Source: Clostridia bacterium
Lineage (GTDB): Bacteria > Bacillota > Clostridia > TANB77 > CAG-508
Assembly: GCA_017937285.1 (NCBI GenBank)
Contig: JAGBDU010000010.1
Span: forward strand, 1 to 64,000
Reading direction: 5' to 3'
Length of the DNA: 64,000 nucleotides
The notes under the pieces are model-generated. The model was not told where the DNA came from, did not search any database, and was given only the letters and a program-made list of their open reading frames with translations. Shown in pieces: positions 23,241 to 63,371 of this stretch (position 1 is its first letter; the number at the start of each line of letters is the position of its first letter). Both the position numbers and the translations under genes were made by a program.

Positions 23241-23340
23241 CGGGGACGGAGAATTGGGGACGGAGAATTTCGGGGACGGAGATTTTCGGGGACGGAGATT
23301 TGGGGACGGAGAATTCTCCATACCAGAAAATCTCCGTCCC
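23241..23340. repeat. GGGGACGGAGA tandem array with one inverted unit
   Basis: Five head-to-tail units of 14-16 bp with core GGGGACGGAGA are followed by one inverted unit (TCTCCGTCCC), so the end can fold back. It begins just after the peroxiredoxin stop. Related arrays lie at 24775, 34744 and 56548. Confidence 0.85.
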
Positions 23341-24774: not shown

Positions 24775-24832
24775 GGGGACGGAGAATCGGGGACGGAGAT
24801 TGCGGTAAGACCGCAATCTCCGTCCCCGAAAT
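24775..24832. repeat. GGGGACGGAGA repeat pair ending in a perfect hairpin
   Basis: Two direct units are followed by an inverted one. GGGGACGGAGATTGCGG pairs over 17 bp with its complement around TAAGA, without a T-run. It ends six bases before the glmM -35 box. Confidence 0.85.
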
Positions 24833-24896: not shown

Positions 24897-26276
24897 ATGA
24901 GAAAATATTTTGGAACAGATGGTATCAGGAGAATTGCAAATACAGAGCTAACTCCTGAACTTGTATATAAAGTAGCAAAAGCAGGTGCATATGTATTATC
25001 AAAACACACAGATCATGCACCAACAATTTTTATAGGAAGAGATACACGTATATCAGGTACTCTAATCGAAAGTGCAATGATTGCAGGATTTTTAAGTTAT
25101 GGTGCAAATGTAAAAATATTAGGAGTAATGCCAACACCAGCAGTTGCATATTTAACAAAAAGATTTAAAGCAGATGCAAGTGTAGTTATTTCAGCATCTC
25201 ATAATACATATGAATTTAATGGGGTAAAATACTTCAGTAATAAAGGAATGAAAATTCCAGATGAACTAGAAGAAGAAATAGAAGAAGTAATGGACTCAGG
25301 TAAAATAAATGAACTAACAGCTGTAAACGACAAAATAGGAGTATCTGAAATAAGAACAGATTTATTAGATGAATATGTATATTTTTTCAGAAAGAATTTC
25401 GAAGAGGAATTAGAAGAGCTAAATAAAGATGACTTCGTTGTAGCAATAGATACAGCAAATGGAGCAACATCAGTTGTAGCAGATAAAGTATTTACAGTAC
25501 TTGGAATAAAACATCATATATTAAACAATAATCCAGATGGAATTAATATAAACGATAACTGTGGTTCAACACATTTAGGAATGTTAAAAGACTATGTTAT
25601 AAAAAATAAATGTAGCCTAGGAATTGCATATGATGGAGATGGAGATAGATGTTTAGCAATAGATGAAAAAGGAAATGAAATAGATGGTGATAAAATTTTA
25701 GCAGTGCTATCAAATTATTTTAAGAAAAAAGGAAAATTAAACAAAGATACAGTAGTAGCAACAGTAATGAGCAACCTAGGATTAAACAAATATGCAAAAC
25801 AAAATGATTTAAATTTTGTTCAAACAAAAGTTGGAGATAGATATGTTTTAGAAGAAATGCTAAAAAACGGATACAACTTAGGAGGAGAACAATCTGGACA
25901 CGTAATATGCCTAGACTACAATCCAACAGGTGACGGAATATTAACATCATTAATGCTAATAAGAGCAATATTAGAAGAAGAAAAAACAGCATCAGAAGTA
26001 GCATCAATAATGAAAGCATATCCACAAGTATTAATAAATGCAAAAGTATCATCAGACAAAAAATACGACTTTGACAAAGACGAAGAAATAAAATCAGAAA
26101 TAGAAAAGCTAGAAAAAGAATTCGATGGAAATGGAAGAGTATTAATAAGAGCCTCAGGAACAGAACCATTAGTAAGAGTAATGATAGAAGGTGAAAACCA
26201 AAACTACATAAAACAAAAAGCACAAACAATAGCTAATCTAATAGAACAAAAACTTGGGGACGGGGCAAAAAATTAA
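24897..26276 (+). CDS. glmM: Phosphoglucosamine mutase
   Basis: GlmM converts glucosamine-6-phosphate to glucosamine-1-phosphate on the way to UDP-GlcNAc and peptidoglycan. The 459-residue protein begins RKYFGTDGIRRIAN, has the phosphoserine loop ISASHNTYEFNG, the metal loop DGDGDR and the C-terminal RASGTEPLVRVMIEG. Length is usual for the family. The last six residues, GDGAKN, and the stop codon are encoded by a GGGGACGGGGC repeat that starts at 26256, so the original C-terminus has been replaced. AGGAGG precedes the ATG. Confidence 0.95.
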   Translation: MRKYFGTDGIRRIANTELTPELVYKVAKAGAYVLSKHTDHAPTIFIGRDTRISGTLIESAMIAGFLSYGANVKILGVMPTPAVAYLTKRFKADASVVISASHNTYEFNGVKYFSNKGMKIPDELEEEIEEVMDSGKINELTAVNDKIGVSEIRTDLLDEYVYFFRKNFEEELEELNKDDFVVAIDTANGATSVVADKVFTVLGIKHHILNNNPDGININDNCGSTHLGMLKDYVIKNKCSLGIAYDGDGDRCLAIDEKGNEIDGDKILAVLSNYFKKKGKLNKDTVVATVMSNLGLNKYAKQNDLNFVQTKVGDRYVLEEMLKNGYNLGGEQSGHVICLDYNPTGDGILTSLMLIRAILEEEKTASEVASIMKAYPQVLINAKVSSDKKYDFDKDEEIKSEIEKLEKEFDGNGRVLIRASGTEPLVRVMIEGENQNYIKQKAQTIANLIEQKLGDGAKN

Positions 26277-26278
26277 AG
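26256..26278 (+). repeat. GGGGACGGGGCAAAAAATTAAAG unit, left of the Y1 transposase
   Basis: This 23-bp unit overlaps the glmM 3' end. The inverted partner is at 27171-27193 on the other side of the transposase gene; further copies are at 29592, 29628, 29687, 52315, 52403 and 52458, with a variant at 47761. Confidence 0.9.
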
Positions 26279-26405
26279 TAAACATAAATTACAAATAAGT
26301 AATAATCCGAATCCAAAAAATAAAAATTAATTTCATAGGGGTTAAAAAAAGATGTACATTAAGTACGCTGGGGGCAAATTTTAAAGTAAGGAATGGTGAA
26401 GAAAT

Positions 26406-27158
26406 ATGTCTCGTATAGCAAGAAAAGACTTAAATGCATCTTTTTTTCATGTTATGTCACAAGGCATTAACAGAGAAAAAATATTTTATAAGGAAAGTTA
26501 TCGTAAAAAATATTTAGATTTAATGAGGGAAAATGAAAAAAAGCACAATATAGAAATAATTGCATATTGTGTTATGTCAAATCATGTACATATGCTAATT
26601 TATACAGAGCAAATTAATGAGTTGTCAAGATTTATGCGTATGATAAATACAAGTTATGCCAGATATTTCAATTGGTACGAAGAAAGAGTGGGTTATGTTT
26701 TTAGAAATAGATTTAAAAGCGAGCCAATATTAGATGAAAAATATCTATGGCAATGTATAAAATATATACATAAAAATCCAGTAAAAGCGAAAATGGTGCA
26801 GAAATGTGAAGATTATGAGTTTTCATCATACAATGATTATAAGAAAAAAACAGGAGTTGCTAAAAATAAAATTTTAAATAAAATATTTGAATCTGAAAAT
26901 TATTTTTCGAATATAGAACATGCAGATGATTTTTCGGGTTTTATAGAAGATGAAAATAATAAAGAAGAAGTTATGGAAGAATATATTAAAGATTTTCTTT
27001 GTAGAAATAATACGGTGATACCTGAAGTTTTAGAAGATAAAAAAATGTTAAAAGAGCTGATAAACGTACTTTTGAATAATGCAAATATGAGTAAAAGAGA
27101 TGTAGAAAATAGATTGAATATATCTTCGTGGAAACTAGGGCAAATATTGAAATTGTAG
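26406..27158 (+). CDS. REP-associated tyrosine transposase (Y1/IS200-like)
   Basis: This 250-residue protein has the HUH motif as SNHVHMLIY near residue 59 and an N-terminal ARKDLNASFFHVMSQGINRE typical of REP-associated (RAYT) transposases. Candidate catalytic tyrosines lie in YIHKNPVKA and its surroundings. A C-terminal helix-turn-helix-like part (NMSKRDVENRLNISSWKLGQ) may bind DNA. RAYTs cut single-stranded REP hairpins. The gene is flanked by inverted GGGGACGGGGC units, and such units occur across the window, which fits a transposase and its substrates. Confidence 0.85.
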   Translation: MSRIARKDLNASFFHVMSQGINREKIFYKESYRKKYLDLMRENEKKHNIEIIAYCVMSNHVHMLIYTEQINELSRFMRMINTSYARYFNWYEERVGYVFRNRFKSEPILDEKYLWQCIKYIHKNPVKAKMVQKCEDYEFSSYNDYKKKTGVAKNKILNKIFESENYFSNIEHADDFSGFIEDENNKEEVMEEYIKDFLCRNNTVIPEVLEDKKMLKELINVLLNNANMSKRDVENRLNISSWKLGQILKL

Positions 27159-27170
27159 AAATTATGTAAA

Positions 27171-27193
27171 TTTTAATTTTTTGCCCCGTCCCC
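27171..27193 (-). repeat. Inverted GGGGACGGGGC unit, right of the Y1 transposase
   Basis: Inverted copy of the unit at 26256, with a one-base difference at its outer end. Begins 12 bases after the transposase stop. Together the two units bracket the gene like element ends. Confidence 0.9.
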
Positions 27194-27202
27194 AATTGAC
27201 AA

Positions 27203-27333: not shown

Positions 27334-27930
27334 ATGAATATTAGAGATTTAAACGATGTGGTACGGTATTTAACAGAAAAAGCTCCTGAGCTAGAGCTAA
27401 AAAGAGGTCAAACAACATGTATTGAAAAATTTAGACTTAACCCTGCAAATAATTATGAGGTAGTTCAGGTTTTTTGTAACGATTGGGATAATAATGGACC
27501 AATAGCTGAATTCTGGAAAGGGTACTATAAAAAGAAACCTAAAATATGTACAGGTTTTTTTGGACCACAAAACAGTCATTATTTTAAAAAGCAAGGAGAC
27601 TTAAACTCAATAATAACTGAAATAATGAAAGAAAAAAAGCGTATCGAAATTTGTCCGAAAATCATTAAAGCATTAGAAAGTACAGTCAATATTAATAAAA
27701 CTTTAAAAAGTATATACCAGCCAATTTTTCCAAAAGATATAACTGCTTGCGATGATGAAAAATCATGGTTAATATCTTGCGAATCATTTAGGTGCAAAGC
27801 TAATCAGAGATGTACTATGACTGTAGAAGAAGTAGACAACTCTTGTTTTTATTTTAAATATCAGCTAGAAACGTGGCAAAATAACAAATATGAATTAGAT
27901 TCTGCAGGTATGTTTATTATAGCTATTTAA
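27334..27930 (+). CDS. Hypothetical protein, 198 residues
   Basis: I do not recognise this protein. It is soluble with no signal peptide. A conserved-looking block VFCNDWDNNGPIAEFWKGYY lies near residue 48. The C-terminal half has several cysteines (TACDDEKSWLISCESFRCKA, then QRCTM), which could bind a metal. It has its own promoter and ends before a palindrome that may terminate it. Confidence 0.5.
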   Translation: MNIRDLNDVVRYLTEKAPELELKRGQTTCIEKFRLNPANNYEVVQVFCNDWDNNGPIAEFWKGYYKKKPKICTGFFGPQNSHYFKKQGDLNSIITEIMKEKKRIEICPKIIKALESTVNINKTLKSIYQPIFPKDITACDDEKSWLISCESFRCKANQRCTMTVEEVDNSCFYFKYQLETWQNNKYELDSAGMFIIAI

Positions 27931-29591: not shown

Positions 29592-29711
29592 GGGGACGGG
29601 GCAAAAAATTAAAGTTTTCAAATAAATGGGGACGGGGCAAAAAATTGAAGTTGTCATAAAATTAAATAGTAACAGAGATTATGAAAACTTTAATTTTTTG
29701 CCCCGTCCCCA
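29592..29711. repeat. Three GGGGACGGGGC units, two direct and one inverted
   Basis: Units at 29592-29614 and 29628-29650 (plus) and 29687-29710 (minus). The outer ones can pair over more than 20 bases, forming a large hairpin directly after metG and before the next promoter. Confidence 0.9.
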
Positions 29712-34743: not shown

Positions 34744-34890
34744 TCGGGACGAAGAAACGGGGACGGAGAAATCGGGGACGGAGAAATCGGGGGACGGAGA
34801 AACGGGGACGGAGAATTGGGGACGGAGAAATCGGGGGACGGAGAATTGGGGACGGAGAATTTCTCCGTCCCCCGATTTCTCCGTCCCCGC
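34744..34890. repeat. GGGGACGGAGAA tandem array with terminal inverted units
   Basis: About nine forward units (variants ending AAACG, AAATCG and ATTG) and two inverted units at the right end, which makes a large fold-back. Starts three bases after the ackA terminator. Confidence 0.9.
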
Positions 34891-47664: not shown

Positions 47665-47760
47665 CAATTTACATAATATATTATTGCCGATGCTACGGAG
47701 ATTATTGACACAAACTCCAATTTGGGTCAATAATCACTATTCTTATTAAATTTTATGACA

Positions 47761-47784
47761 ATTTTATTTTTTTGCTCCGTCCCC
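47761..47784 (-). repeat. Single degenerate GGGGACGGGGC unit
   Basis: Minus-strand variant GGGGACGGAGCAAAAAAATAAAA. Just upstream, 47701-47733 holds a hairpin around ATTATTGAC/GTCAATAAT. Confidence 0.7.
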
Positions 47785-52314: not shown

Positions 52315-52480
52315 GGGGACGGGGCAAAAAATTAAAGTTGTCATAATTGAATTTGTGAATTGTATTAAAAAAATGTTACATTTTGCAATATCAATTATGA
52401 CAACTTTATTTTTTGCCCCGTCCCCAAGTTCTAATTTTGCAATATCAATTATGACAACTTTAATTTTTTGCCCCGTCCCC
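52315..52480. repeat. Three GGGGACGGGGC units, one direct and two inverted
   Basis: Units at 52315-52337 (plus), 52403-52425 and 52458-52480 (minus). The two minus units are each preceded by the same ~25 bp (TTTGCAATATCAATTATGAC), showing a local tandem duplication. The outer units can form a long stem. Confidence 0.9.
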
Positions 52481-52498: not shown

Positions 52499-52527
52499 TT
52501 GAAATTTTTGGAAAAATATGCTATCAT
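52499..52527 (+). promoter_or_regulatory. Promoter of the OLE RNA candidate
   Basis: TTGAAA (52499-52504), 17-bp spacer, TATCAT (52522-52527). Transcription would start near 52534, at the beginning of the terminal GGTGGT stem. Confidence 0.8.
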
Positions 52528-52533
52528 AGAAAT

Positions 52534-53115
52534 CGGTGGTGCATTATTCTAGTTACACTAACTTTTACGAGGGTGGGGCTAAAAATCCACTAAAGGGCAC
52601 ATCGTTGAAGTTTCTTGTTGATGCGCGGAATGCCAGTTTTGTGTGTTTTCAGGGAGTAAGATTTTAGGGAATTATGTAATGGCATACATAATAATCCCCT
52701 ATTGTCGCGGAGGCTTGAAATTTTATGTTTATCTATGCATTTCATTTTAAGTATAACCTATATAAAGTGCCAAGACACAATATATAGTGTAGCCTGTTTT
52801 GAGTGGTAGTCTTGGGATTAGCATCTAAAGTAATTATAATTTGGCCAAATTTAATTACTTATTATCGGCTATGAAATCACTACTGCAAAAGAAACTAGTA
52901 TTAGATTTAGGTGTATTAAGGAAAACTTCTAGAGTGTTTGCCATTAAGGCATAGAAATTTAAGGATTAAAGTACGGATTTAAGTGGTTGTCTGGTAATCA
53001 ATAAATCTATTGATTGTTTTCTTTAAACGGAAACGGCTAAGCAGTAATGCTTAGTAGAAAATAGAGAAATTCAACTAGACCTAAACCGTAAAGTTTACTT
53101 AAATTTTACCACCAA
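52534..53115 (+). ncRNA. ole: OLE (ornate large extremophilic) RNA candidate
   Basis: About 580 nt without an open frame, with far more G/C-rich and structured sequence than other intergenic regions here, lies between a good promoter and a gene that looks like oapA. GGTGGT (52535-52540) at the 5' end can pair with ACCACC (53107-53112) at the 3' end, closing one large domain. Known OLE RNAs are about 600 nt and sit directly upstream of oapA. Length, promoter, closing stem and neighbour all agree. The internal OLE consensus was not aligned. Group I or II intron and RNase P RNA do not fit the context. Confidence 0.75.
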
Positions 53116-53155
53116 AGAATTTATTATAAACAATAGGAGAGAAAAATAATAAAAA

Positions 53156-56547: not shown

Positions 56548-56749
56548 GGGGACGGAGAAATCTCCGTCCCCGGAATTCTCCGTCCCCGAAAATCTCCGTC
56601 CCCGAAATTCTCCGTCCCCGGAATTCTCCGTCCCCAAAATTCTCCGTCCCCGAAAATCTCCGTCCCCGGAATTCTCCGTCCCCGAAAATCTCCGTCCCCG
56701 AAAATCTCCGTCCCCGAAAATCTCCGTCCCCAAAATTCTCCGTCCCCGA
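56548..56749. repeat. Large GGGGACGGAGA array, mostly inverted units
   Basis: One forward unit is followed by about twelve head-to-tail minus-strand units of 14-16 bp, spaced by AAAA, AATT or AAAT variants. It is the longest array in the window, lying three bases after the stop of the surface-protein gene. A chance open frame across it on either strand reads as an artificial repeat peptide. Confidence 0.92.
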
Positions 56750-59265: not shown

Positions 59266-59325
59266 GGGAAAAGGGGACGGTTCTAATTTCCCAAAATTGG
59301 GAAATTAGAACCGTCCCCTTTTCCC
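59266..59325. repeat. 60-bp near-perfect palindrome with GGGGACGG core
   Basis: Two 29-bp arms (59266-59294 and 59297-59325) are perfect complements around AA. The arm GGGAAAAGGGGACGGTTCTA shares the GGGGACGG core with the other repeats but has a different tail, so it is a third subfamily. It may also end transcription of the PBP gene. Confidence 0.9.
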
Positions 59326-63095: not shown

Positions 63096-63124
63096 CTGTA
63101 GTTTTTAGTATGTGCTGAATTTCC

Positions 63125-63321
63125 GAAAAAGAGGCAGTAATTAGGAACTATGGGGGGTGATATATATTATTTTTAGTTCACCCCAACCGCGAAGATTCTG
63201 TAAATTTTGCTTCGCTATTCGCTCGCAAAATCAACAGAATCTAGCTTGTCGGTCCCCACCCTAGTTCACGTAAAAATAATATATATCACCCCCCATAGTT
63301 CCTAATTACTGCCTCTTTTTC
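63125..63321. repeat. 197-bp inverted repeat with perfect 51-bp arms, between mcsB and clpC
   Basis: Arms 63125-63175 and 63271-63321 are exact complements (start GAAAAAGAGGCAGTAATTAG). A second stem is nested in the 95-bp centre (GATTCTGT/ACAGAATC, with ATTTTGC/GCAAAAT inside). No open frame and no clear target duplication. It is either a recent palindromic mobile element or an RNA stem in the operon messenger. Confidence 0.93.
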
Positions 63322-63371
63322 TAGTGAGTGCTTTATATTTTTATTAATATTATTTAAGGAGGGAAGTTGAA

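Follow-up and report, generated by a model that had tools for sequence, protein, structure and literature searches.

The question raised by this locus is whether a transposase gene enclosed by two inverted GC-rich units is the agent that spread the same kind of unit through the rest of the genome. The analysed window is a 64-kb stretch of the host genome (1.78 Mb, 27% GC), and it carries a Y1/HUH transposase gene at 26406..27158 (+), whose 250-aa product contains H60, H62, Tyr120 and a YIHKNP motif. The sequence-only reading had placed this gene between inverted GGGGACGGGGCAAAAAATTAAA units, which was borne out, with one unit starting at 26256 (+) and the inverted one ending at 27193 (-). The left unit (26254..26290, +; its core starts at 26256) overlaps with the 3' end of glmM and supplies the last codons and the stop codon of that gene (...KLGDGAKN*), where congeners end in approximately KLG* or KLK*; the right unit (27159..27195, -) is inverted. 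The inverted copies of TTGGGGACGGGGCAAAAAATTAAA lie one 152 bp upstream of the transposase start and the other directly past its stop, and the ungapped inverted match between the two units is 37 nt long, with the mismatches in the outer part. The protein matches Pfam Y1_Tnp (E=4.6e-13) and scores 79.1 bits against NF047646 REP_Tyr_transpos, for which the cut-off is 80; with a mean pLDDT of 43, its single-sequence structure prediction was uninformative. We consider it probable that the gene encodes a TIRYT transposase (Y1 subclass 2.1), present as a single copy and likely domesticated, that works in trans on the repeat belonging to it, and apparently three single-copy paralogs each spread their own GC-rich repeat with an invariant GGGAC core. 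A 198-aa ORF without a Pfam match (27334-27930, +) separates the transposase module from metG; in congeners it was not seen next to glmM.

The units are widely dispersed. In the window, 41 copies of the 8-mer core GGGGACGG are present versus 0.03 expected by chance, and the genome-wide count that the sequence-only reading had proposed gave 490 cores (241 on the plus and 249 on the minus strand), versus 3 for the reversed pattern, and 28 family A copies. That reading had described one window-wide unit, and all of the further copies that it listed do belong to the family of the flanking unit, family A; the core itself is common to four unit families, A to D, which were sorted from 348 kb of sampled host-genome stretches. 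Family A is represented by three units after metG (29592..29710, + + -, listed earlier as 29592-29711), a single unit at 47752..47784 (-), listed earlier as 47761-47784, and three units at 52315..52480 (+ - -), and most dispersed copies run about 10 nt past the 23 bp first recognized (...AAAGTTGTCATAA). The family B unit, GGGGACGGAGATTTTC, forms tandem arrays with a period of 14-16 bp, located at 23242..23316 (+), before glmM at 24775..24827 (+ + -), at 34746..34888 (+ then -) and at 56548..56747 (period 16, one + then twelve -). Family C forms an inverted doublet, GGGGACGGTTCT, at 59266..59325, and the family D unit as read beside the C84 transposase gene is TGAACTTTrGGGACGTTCCTTAAAGTTCA. All units contain GGGAC, which either opens the loop or lies at the unit's end. 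Single units of families C and D fold alone; those of families A and B have no hairpin of their own and fold only as inverted pairs, such as the family A pair within 52315-52480 (-41 kcal/mol, z -13.5). The polarity of neighbouring units is strict, because all 17 orientation switches between same-family neighbours in the 348 kb run + then -, which places GGGAC on the outside, the same arrangement as around the transposase genes. Two other elements were observed in the window. A complete OLE RNA (RF01071, 344 bits, E 1e-97) at 52520-53128 (+) starts 40 bp past the family A cluster, and an imperfect palindromic element of about 210 bp with GGGGACCGACAAG lies at about 63110-63330; the latter is dispersed in the host genome and its relatives (L142:7408, L202:18175, L204:1378, and L189 after metG) and is not obviously one of families A-D.

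The single RAYT/REP system supposed by the sequence-only reading has to be replaced by three transposases and four unit families. The host genome has three Y1 genes, namely the window gene, C98 and C84; the C98 and C84 proteins are 44-47% identical to the window protein. A scan of genome contigs with a single protein as query gave just one weak match. Each gene is flanked by its own inverted unit, which is A in the window, B on C98 (as tandem arrays of 14-16 bp) and D on C84 (as hairpins). Family C is an orphan in the host genome, without a resident transposase, and its cognate likely sits in the sister species G148, where C-like units flank the Y1 gene L194 with 43-45/52 identical positions, versus at most 37/52 at 96 other loci. 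For comparison we used 145 genomes of the same bacterial family; all are species-level drafts and the host draft has 6% estimated contamination, so absences are weaker evidence than presences. Within this set, the 229 tandem pairs of family B and the 36 family C units were found only in the host genome. The period of 14-16 bp, the restriction of the tandem pairs to one species and the lack of folding in a single B unit would all suit an origin of the arrays by slippage alone, as microsatellites with no relation to the C98 transposase, but we regard this explanation as unlikely, since inverted B units flank the C98 transposase itself and the dispersed arrays show 8/8 orientation switches from + to -, which is beyond slippage alone.

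Comparison of orthologous sites revealed turnover between species. The junction between metG and a kinase gene is about 30 bp in the sister G148; in the host the family A cluster 29592-29711 adds about 180 bp there, G137 and G052 carry a transposase module of A type or resembling it, and in G147 a different type of unit follows metG. G148 lacks the family B arrays (34746, 56548) and the family C doublet (59266) at the orthologous sites. Near 47777, G148 holds a C-type unit where the host has a family A unit, and near 63100 it holds a C unit where the host has another element. As the sister-species sites are either empty or filled with another unit type, the units turn over. The module itself follows glmM in the host and in none of the 12 other congeners with a readable junction, and this, together with the A-type modules after metG in G137 and G052, is what one would expect if unit, gene and unit moved whole as an ordinary autonomous insertion sequence, the solo and paired units being its decayed ends or MITE-like derivatives. 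We judge this explanation quite improbable. There is one gene per unit type per genome, the units exceed the genes by tens to hundreds, and same-genome paralogs are at most 64% identical (52 pairs), unlike the IS200 TnpA, several strong copies of which are found within one genome (G034).

The association of units with transposases extends to the relatives. The 145 genomes contain Y1 proteins of two classes, the IS200 TnpA, which is short and scores high, and a long one of about 225-300 aa, and GGGGACGG counts track the latter (Spearman 0.48, p 1e-9; median 9 in genomes with it versus 1.5 in those without any Y1) and show no correlation with the short one (-0.06). The flanks were read at 96 loci, comprising 93 relatives and the three host genes, and in 78 of them GGGAC lies to the left and GTCCC to the right of the transposase. 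GGGAC density is 4.27/kb in the flanks versus 0.20 in the genes, i.e., 21-fold over the gene body and 10-fold over the outer flank. Beyond the core, the agreement of left with right units is 74% within a locus and 38% between loci, the best-matching pair being taken in both comparisons. The arm sequences vary by locus and mostly stay self-complementary, with a stem score >=7 in 62% versus 2% in shuffles among the loci with GGGAC on both sides, and the unit consensus is arm-(R)GGGAC(G/A)-loop-arm'. Unit similarity climbs with protein identity above 45% (0/1000 permutations), a co-divergence that may be partly due to shared descent of one locus. The proteins are well conserved: H60/H62 are present in 94/94 and Y120 in 92/94 aligned sequences, N124 and P125 are nearly invariant, and all 79 relatives searched (79/79) match the Pfam Y1_Tnp core. 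Assorted HTH models match the C-terminal extension in a minority of these 79, the C84 paralog included; the 250-aa window protein also has such an extension, in which no HTH model matched. Counted from the list, the first core lies within 10 nt of a same-strand stop codon in 29/69 loci and within 30 nt in 49/69, and the stop codon is at or beyond the core start in 21/69; tolerance or preference may explain this proximity, and both fit. In the host's genus, modules were also seen directly after essential genes, at L194 (G148), L196 (G146), L122 (G052), L124 (G137) and the window site 26256; the upstream genes are glmM and metG (by tblastn) and an apparent ileS end recognized from sequence reading alone.

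Units and transposases co-occur in a type-specific manner. Besides the host, family A is found in G137 and G152 (8 copies each) and G074 (1 copy), with none in the remaining genomes searched. The expectation of the sequence-only reading that units and transposase occur together mostly held, as the host and G137, whose transposase L124 has A-type flanks, carry both, but in the 66% complete draft of G152 the units are present and no transposase was found. Family D has 17 copies in the host, 125 in G133, 29 in G089 and 7 in G105, each of which carries a D-type transposase; G134 has a D-type transposase yet only 1 unit, and G033, G091 and G099 have 10 units each with no transposase found up to E 1. 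Similarly, G109, G120, G094, G023, G074 and G142 contain 10-63 GGGGACGG cores and no Y1 gene up to E 1, and these may be relic families, or the genes may be absent from the drafts. Among named relatives, that of Acetoanaerobium noterae (Clostridia) is flanked by inverted AATCATTAGGGACGGTTCTTTTTGATT, a unit present at 31 places, those of Sporomusa, Rhodospirillum and Iodobacter have inverted GGGGTCAG flanks and that of Legionella has GGGTCAGG flanks; no clear inverted GGGAC or GGGGTCAG flanks were seen in those of Collinsella, Skermanella and a phage-like scaffold. That the units are host elements, for instance terminators of transcription or hairpins at mRNA ends, which selection or slippage has spread and whose link to the transposase is secondary, is very unlikely, because the stop-codon proximity, the strong hairpins of unit pairs and the slippage-like B arrays which favour it are set against the oriented flanking of the transposase, the type-specific co-occurrence, unit counts that follow the long and not the short Y1 class, and the different unit types held by related species at one site.

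Mobilisation in trans by the transposase, which is probably domesticated, would account for the pairing of each paralog with its own unit, the dispersal of each unit type, the oriented flanks and the turnover, from which we infer the mobility of the units. Two observations count against trans-mobilisation, namely the unit families without a detectable transposase and the A and B units without a hairpin of their own. In the proposed mechanism, the protein would bind the unit as folded single-stranded DNA, as a single hairpin for C and D and as an inverted pair for A and B, with GGGAC read as the invariant part and the arms as the part specific to each paralog. Tyr120 would then cut, and unit pairs would be moved or copied, as proposed for TnpAREP and REPINs; copies just past stop codons would be tolerated, and family B would later have grown into tandem arrays in the host species only, by the action of the transposase or by slippage. 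More tentatively, and with somewhat less than even confidence, we suggest that GGGAC at the loop start or unit end is a constant signal and the diverging complementary arms are the address of each single-copy paralog, which would be a distinct target-recognition scheme of Y1 enzymes; arms acting as an address would allow several non-interfering repeat families to coexist in one small genome.

These results extend a poorly described cousin of the bacterial REP repeats, and they indicate that in the host's bacterial family most subclass 2.1-type genes have clear, type-specific, dispersed repeat partners. The units are concrete substrates for biochemistry and widen REP-like biology beyond GTAG and Proteobacteria, and a common core with diverging arms provides a natural data set for hairpin recognition by an HUH enzyme. 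No relevant literature on the repeat sequence itself was found.

Compared with known systems, the complete RAYT/REP system proposed by the sequence-only reading holds as far as organisation is concerned, since a transposase is accompanied by a dispersed family of repeats of its own in a genome of 27% GC, plausibly of the Bacillota, but the system is not a canonical one. RAYT/TnpAREP of Gammaproteobacteria, with GTAG REPs and REPINs, shares the single-copy HUH-Y1 protein, the inverted flanking repeats, the dispersed pairs in one relative orientation and one repeat family per paralog, and among solved structures the closest in sequence is that of E. coli TnpAREP (E 0.0056, three-protein profile). 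However, the GTAG foot is lacking here, as GT[AG]G beside the core occurs in 4% of units versus 6% in shuffles, in two of the four families a single unit does not fold, and W94, a GTAG-reading residue of E. coli TnpAREP, aligns with F99 of the window protein (88 of 94 proteins have F there and 5 have Y). The IS200/IS605 TnpA shares the Y1_Tnp domain and the HUH/Tyr residues, but it is short, has strong Pfam scores, is sometimes present in several copies per genome and is uncorrelated with unit counts; the window protein, at 250 aa, with 25 bits against transpos_IS200 (cut-off 55) and paralogs 44-47% identical, does not fit this group. In the CGTC-tagged REPs, CGTC is unpaired and lies beyond a stem of 8-9 bp whose loop has 4-5 nt, and these REPs have no associated transposase (PMC3733652); CGTC is contained in the reverse complement of the core here, a superficial likeness on the reverse strand that we did not adopt, as both the position of CGTC and the missing transposase set them apart.

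The better label appears to be TIRYT/TIRtron, i.e., Y1 genes with GGGGWSAS terminal inverted repeats (Di Nocera et al. 2013, PMC3733652), most of which have been equated with Y1 subclass 2.1 (Quentin et al. 2018, PMC6006769). This subclass is the second largest Y1 protein group, found in about 15% of strains, with C-terminal HTH domains noted and no REP-like sequences reported (PMC6006769). The host transposases have the TIRYT features of an HUH motif and a Y---NP signature in the Y1_Tnp core, together with terminal inverted repeats, whose motif resembles the GGGG(A/T)(C/G) of TIRYTs; as in TIRYTs, the repeats are single, paired or grouped and differ between paralogs, and a C-terminal HTH is predicted in several relatives. 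Among 235 units, strict GGGGWSAS is present in 17%, GGGGWSRS in 48% and GGGACR in 99%, so that the consensus is related but shifted, motif position 7 being mostly G (GGGGACG) rather than A. The units also differ from TIRYT repeats in that GGGAC opens the hairpin loop while the arms vary by locus, and in their hundreds of copies and tandem 14-16 bp arrays. What is new here, relative to these systems, is the loop-borne GGGAC core with diverging arms, the strict outward-core dimers and the species-specific tandem expansion.
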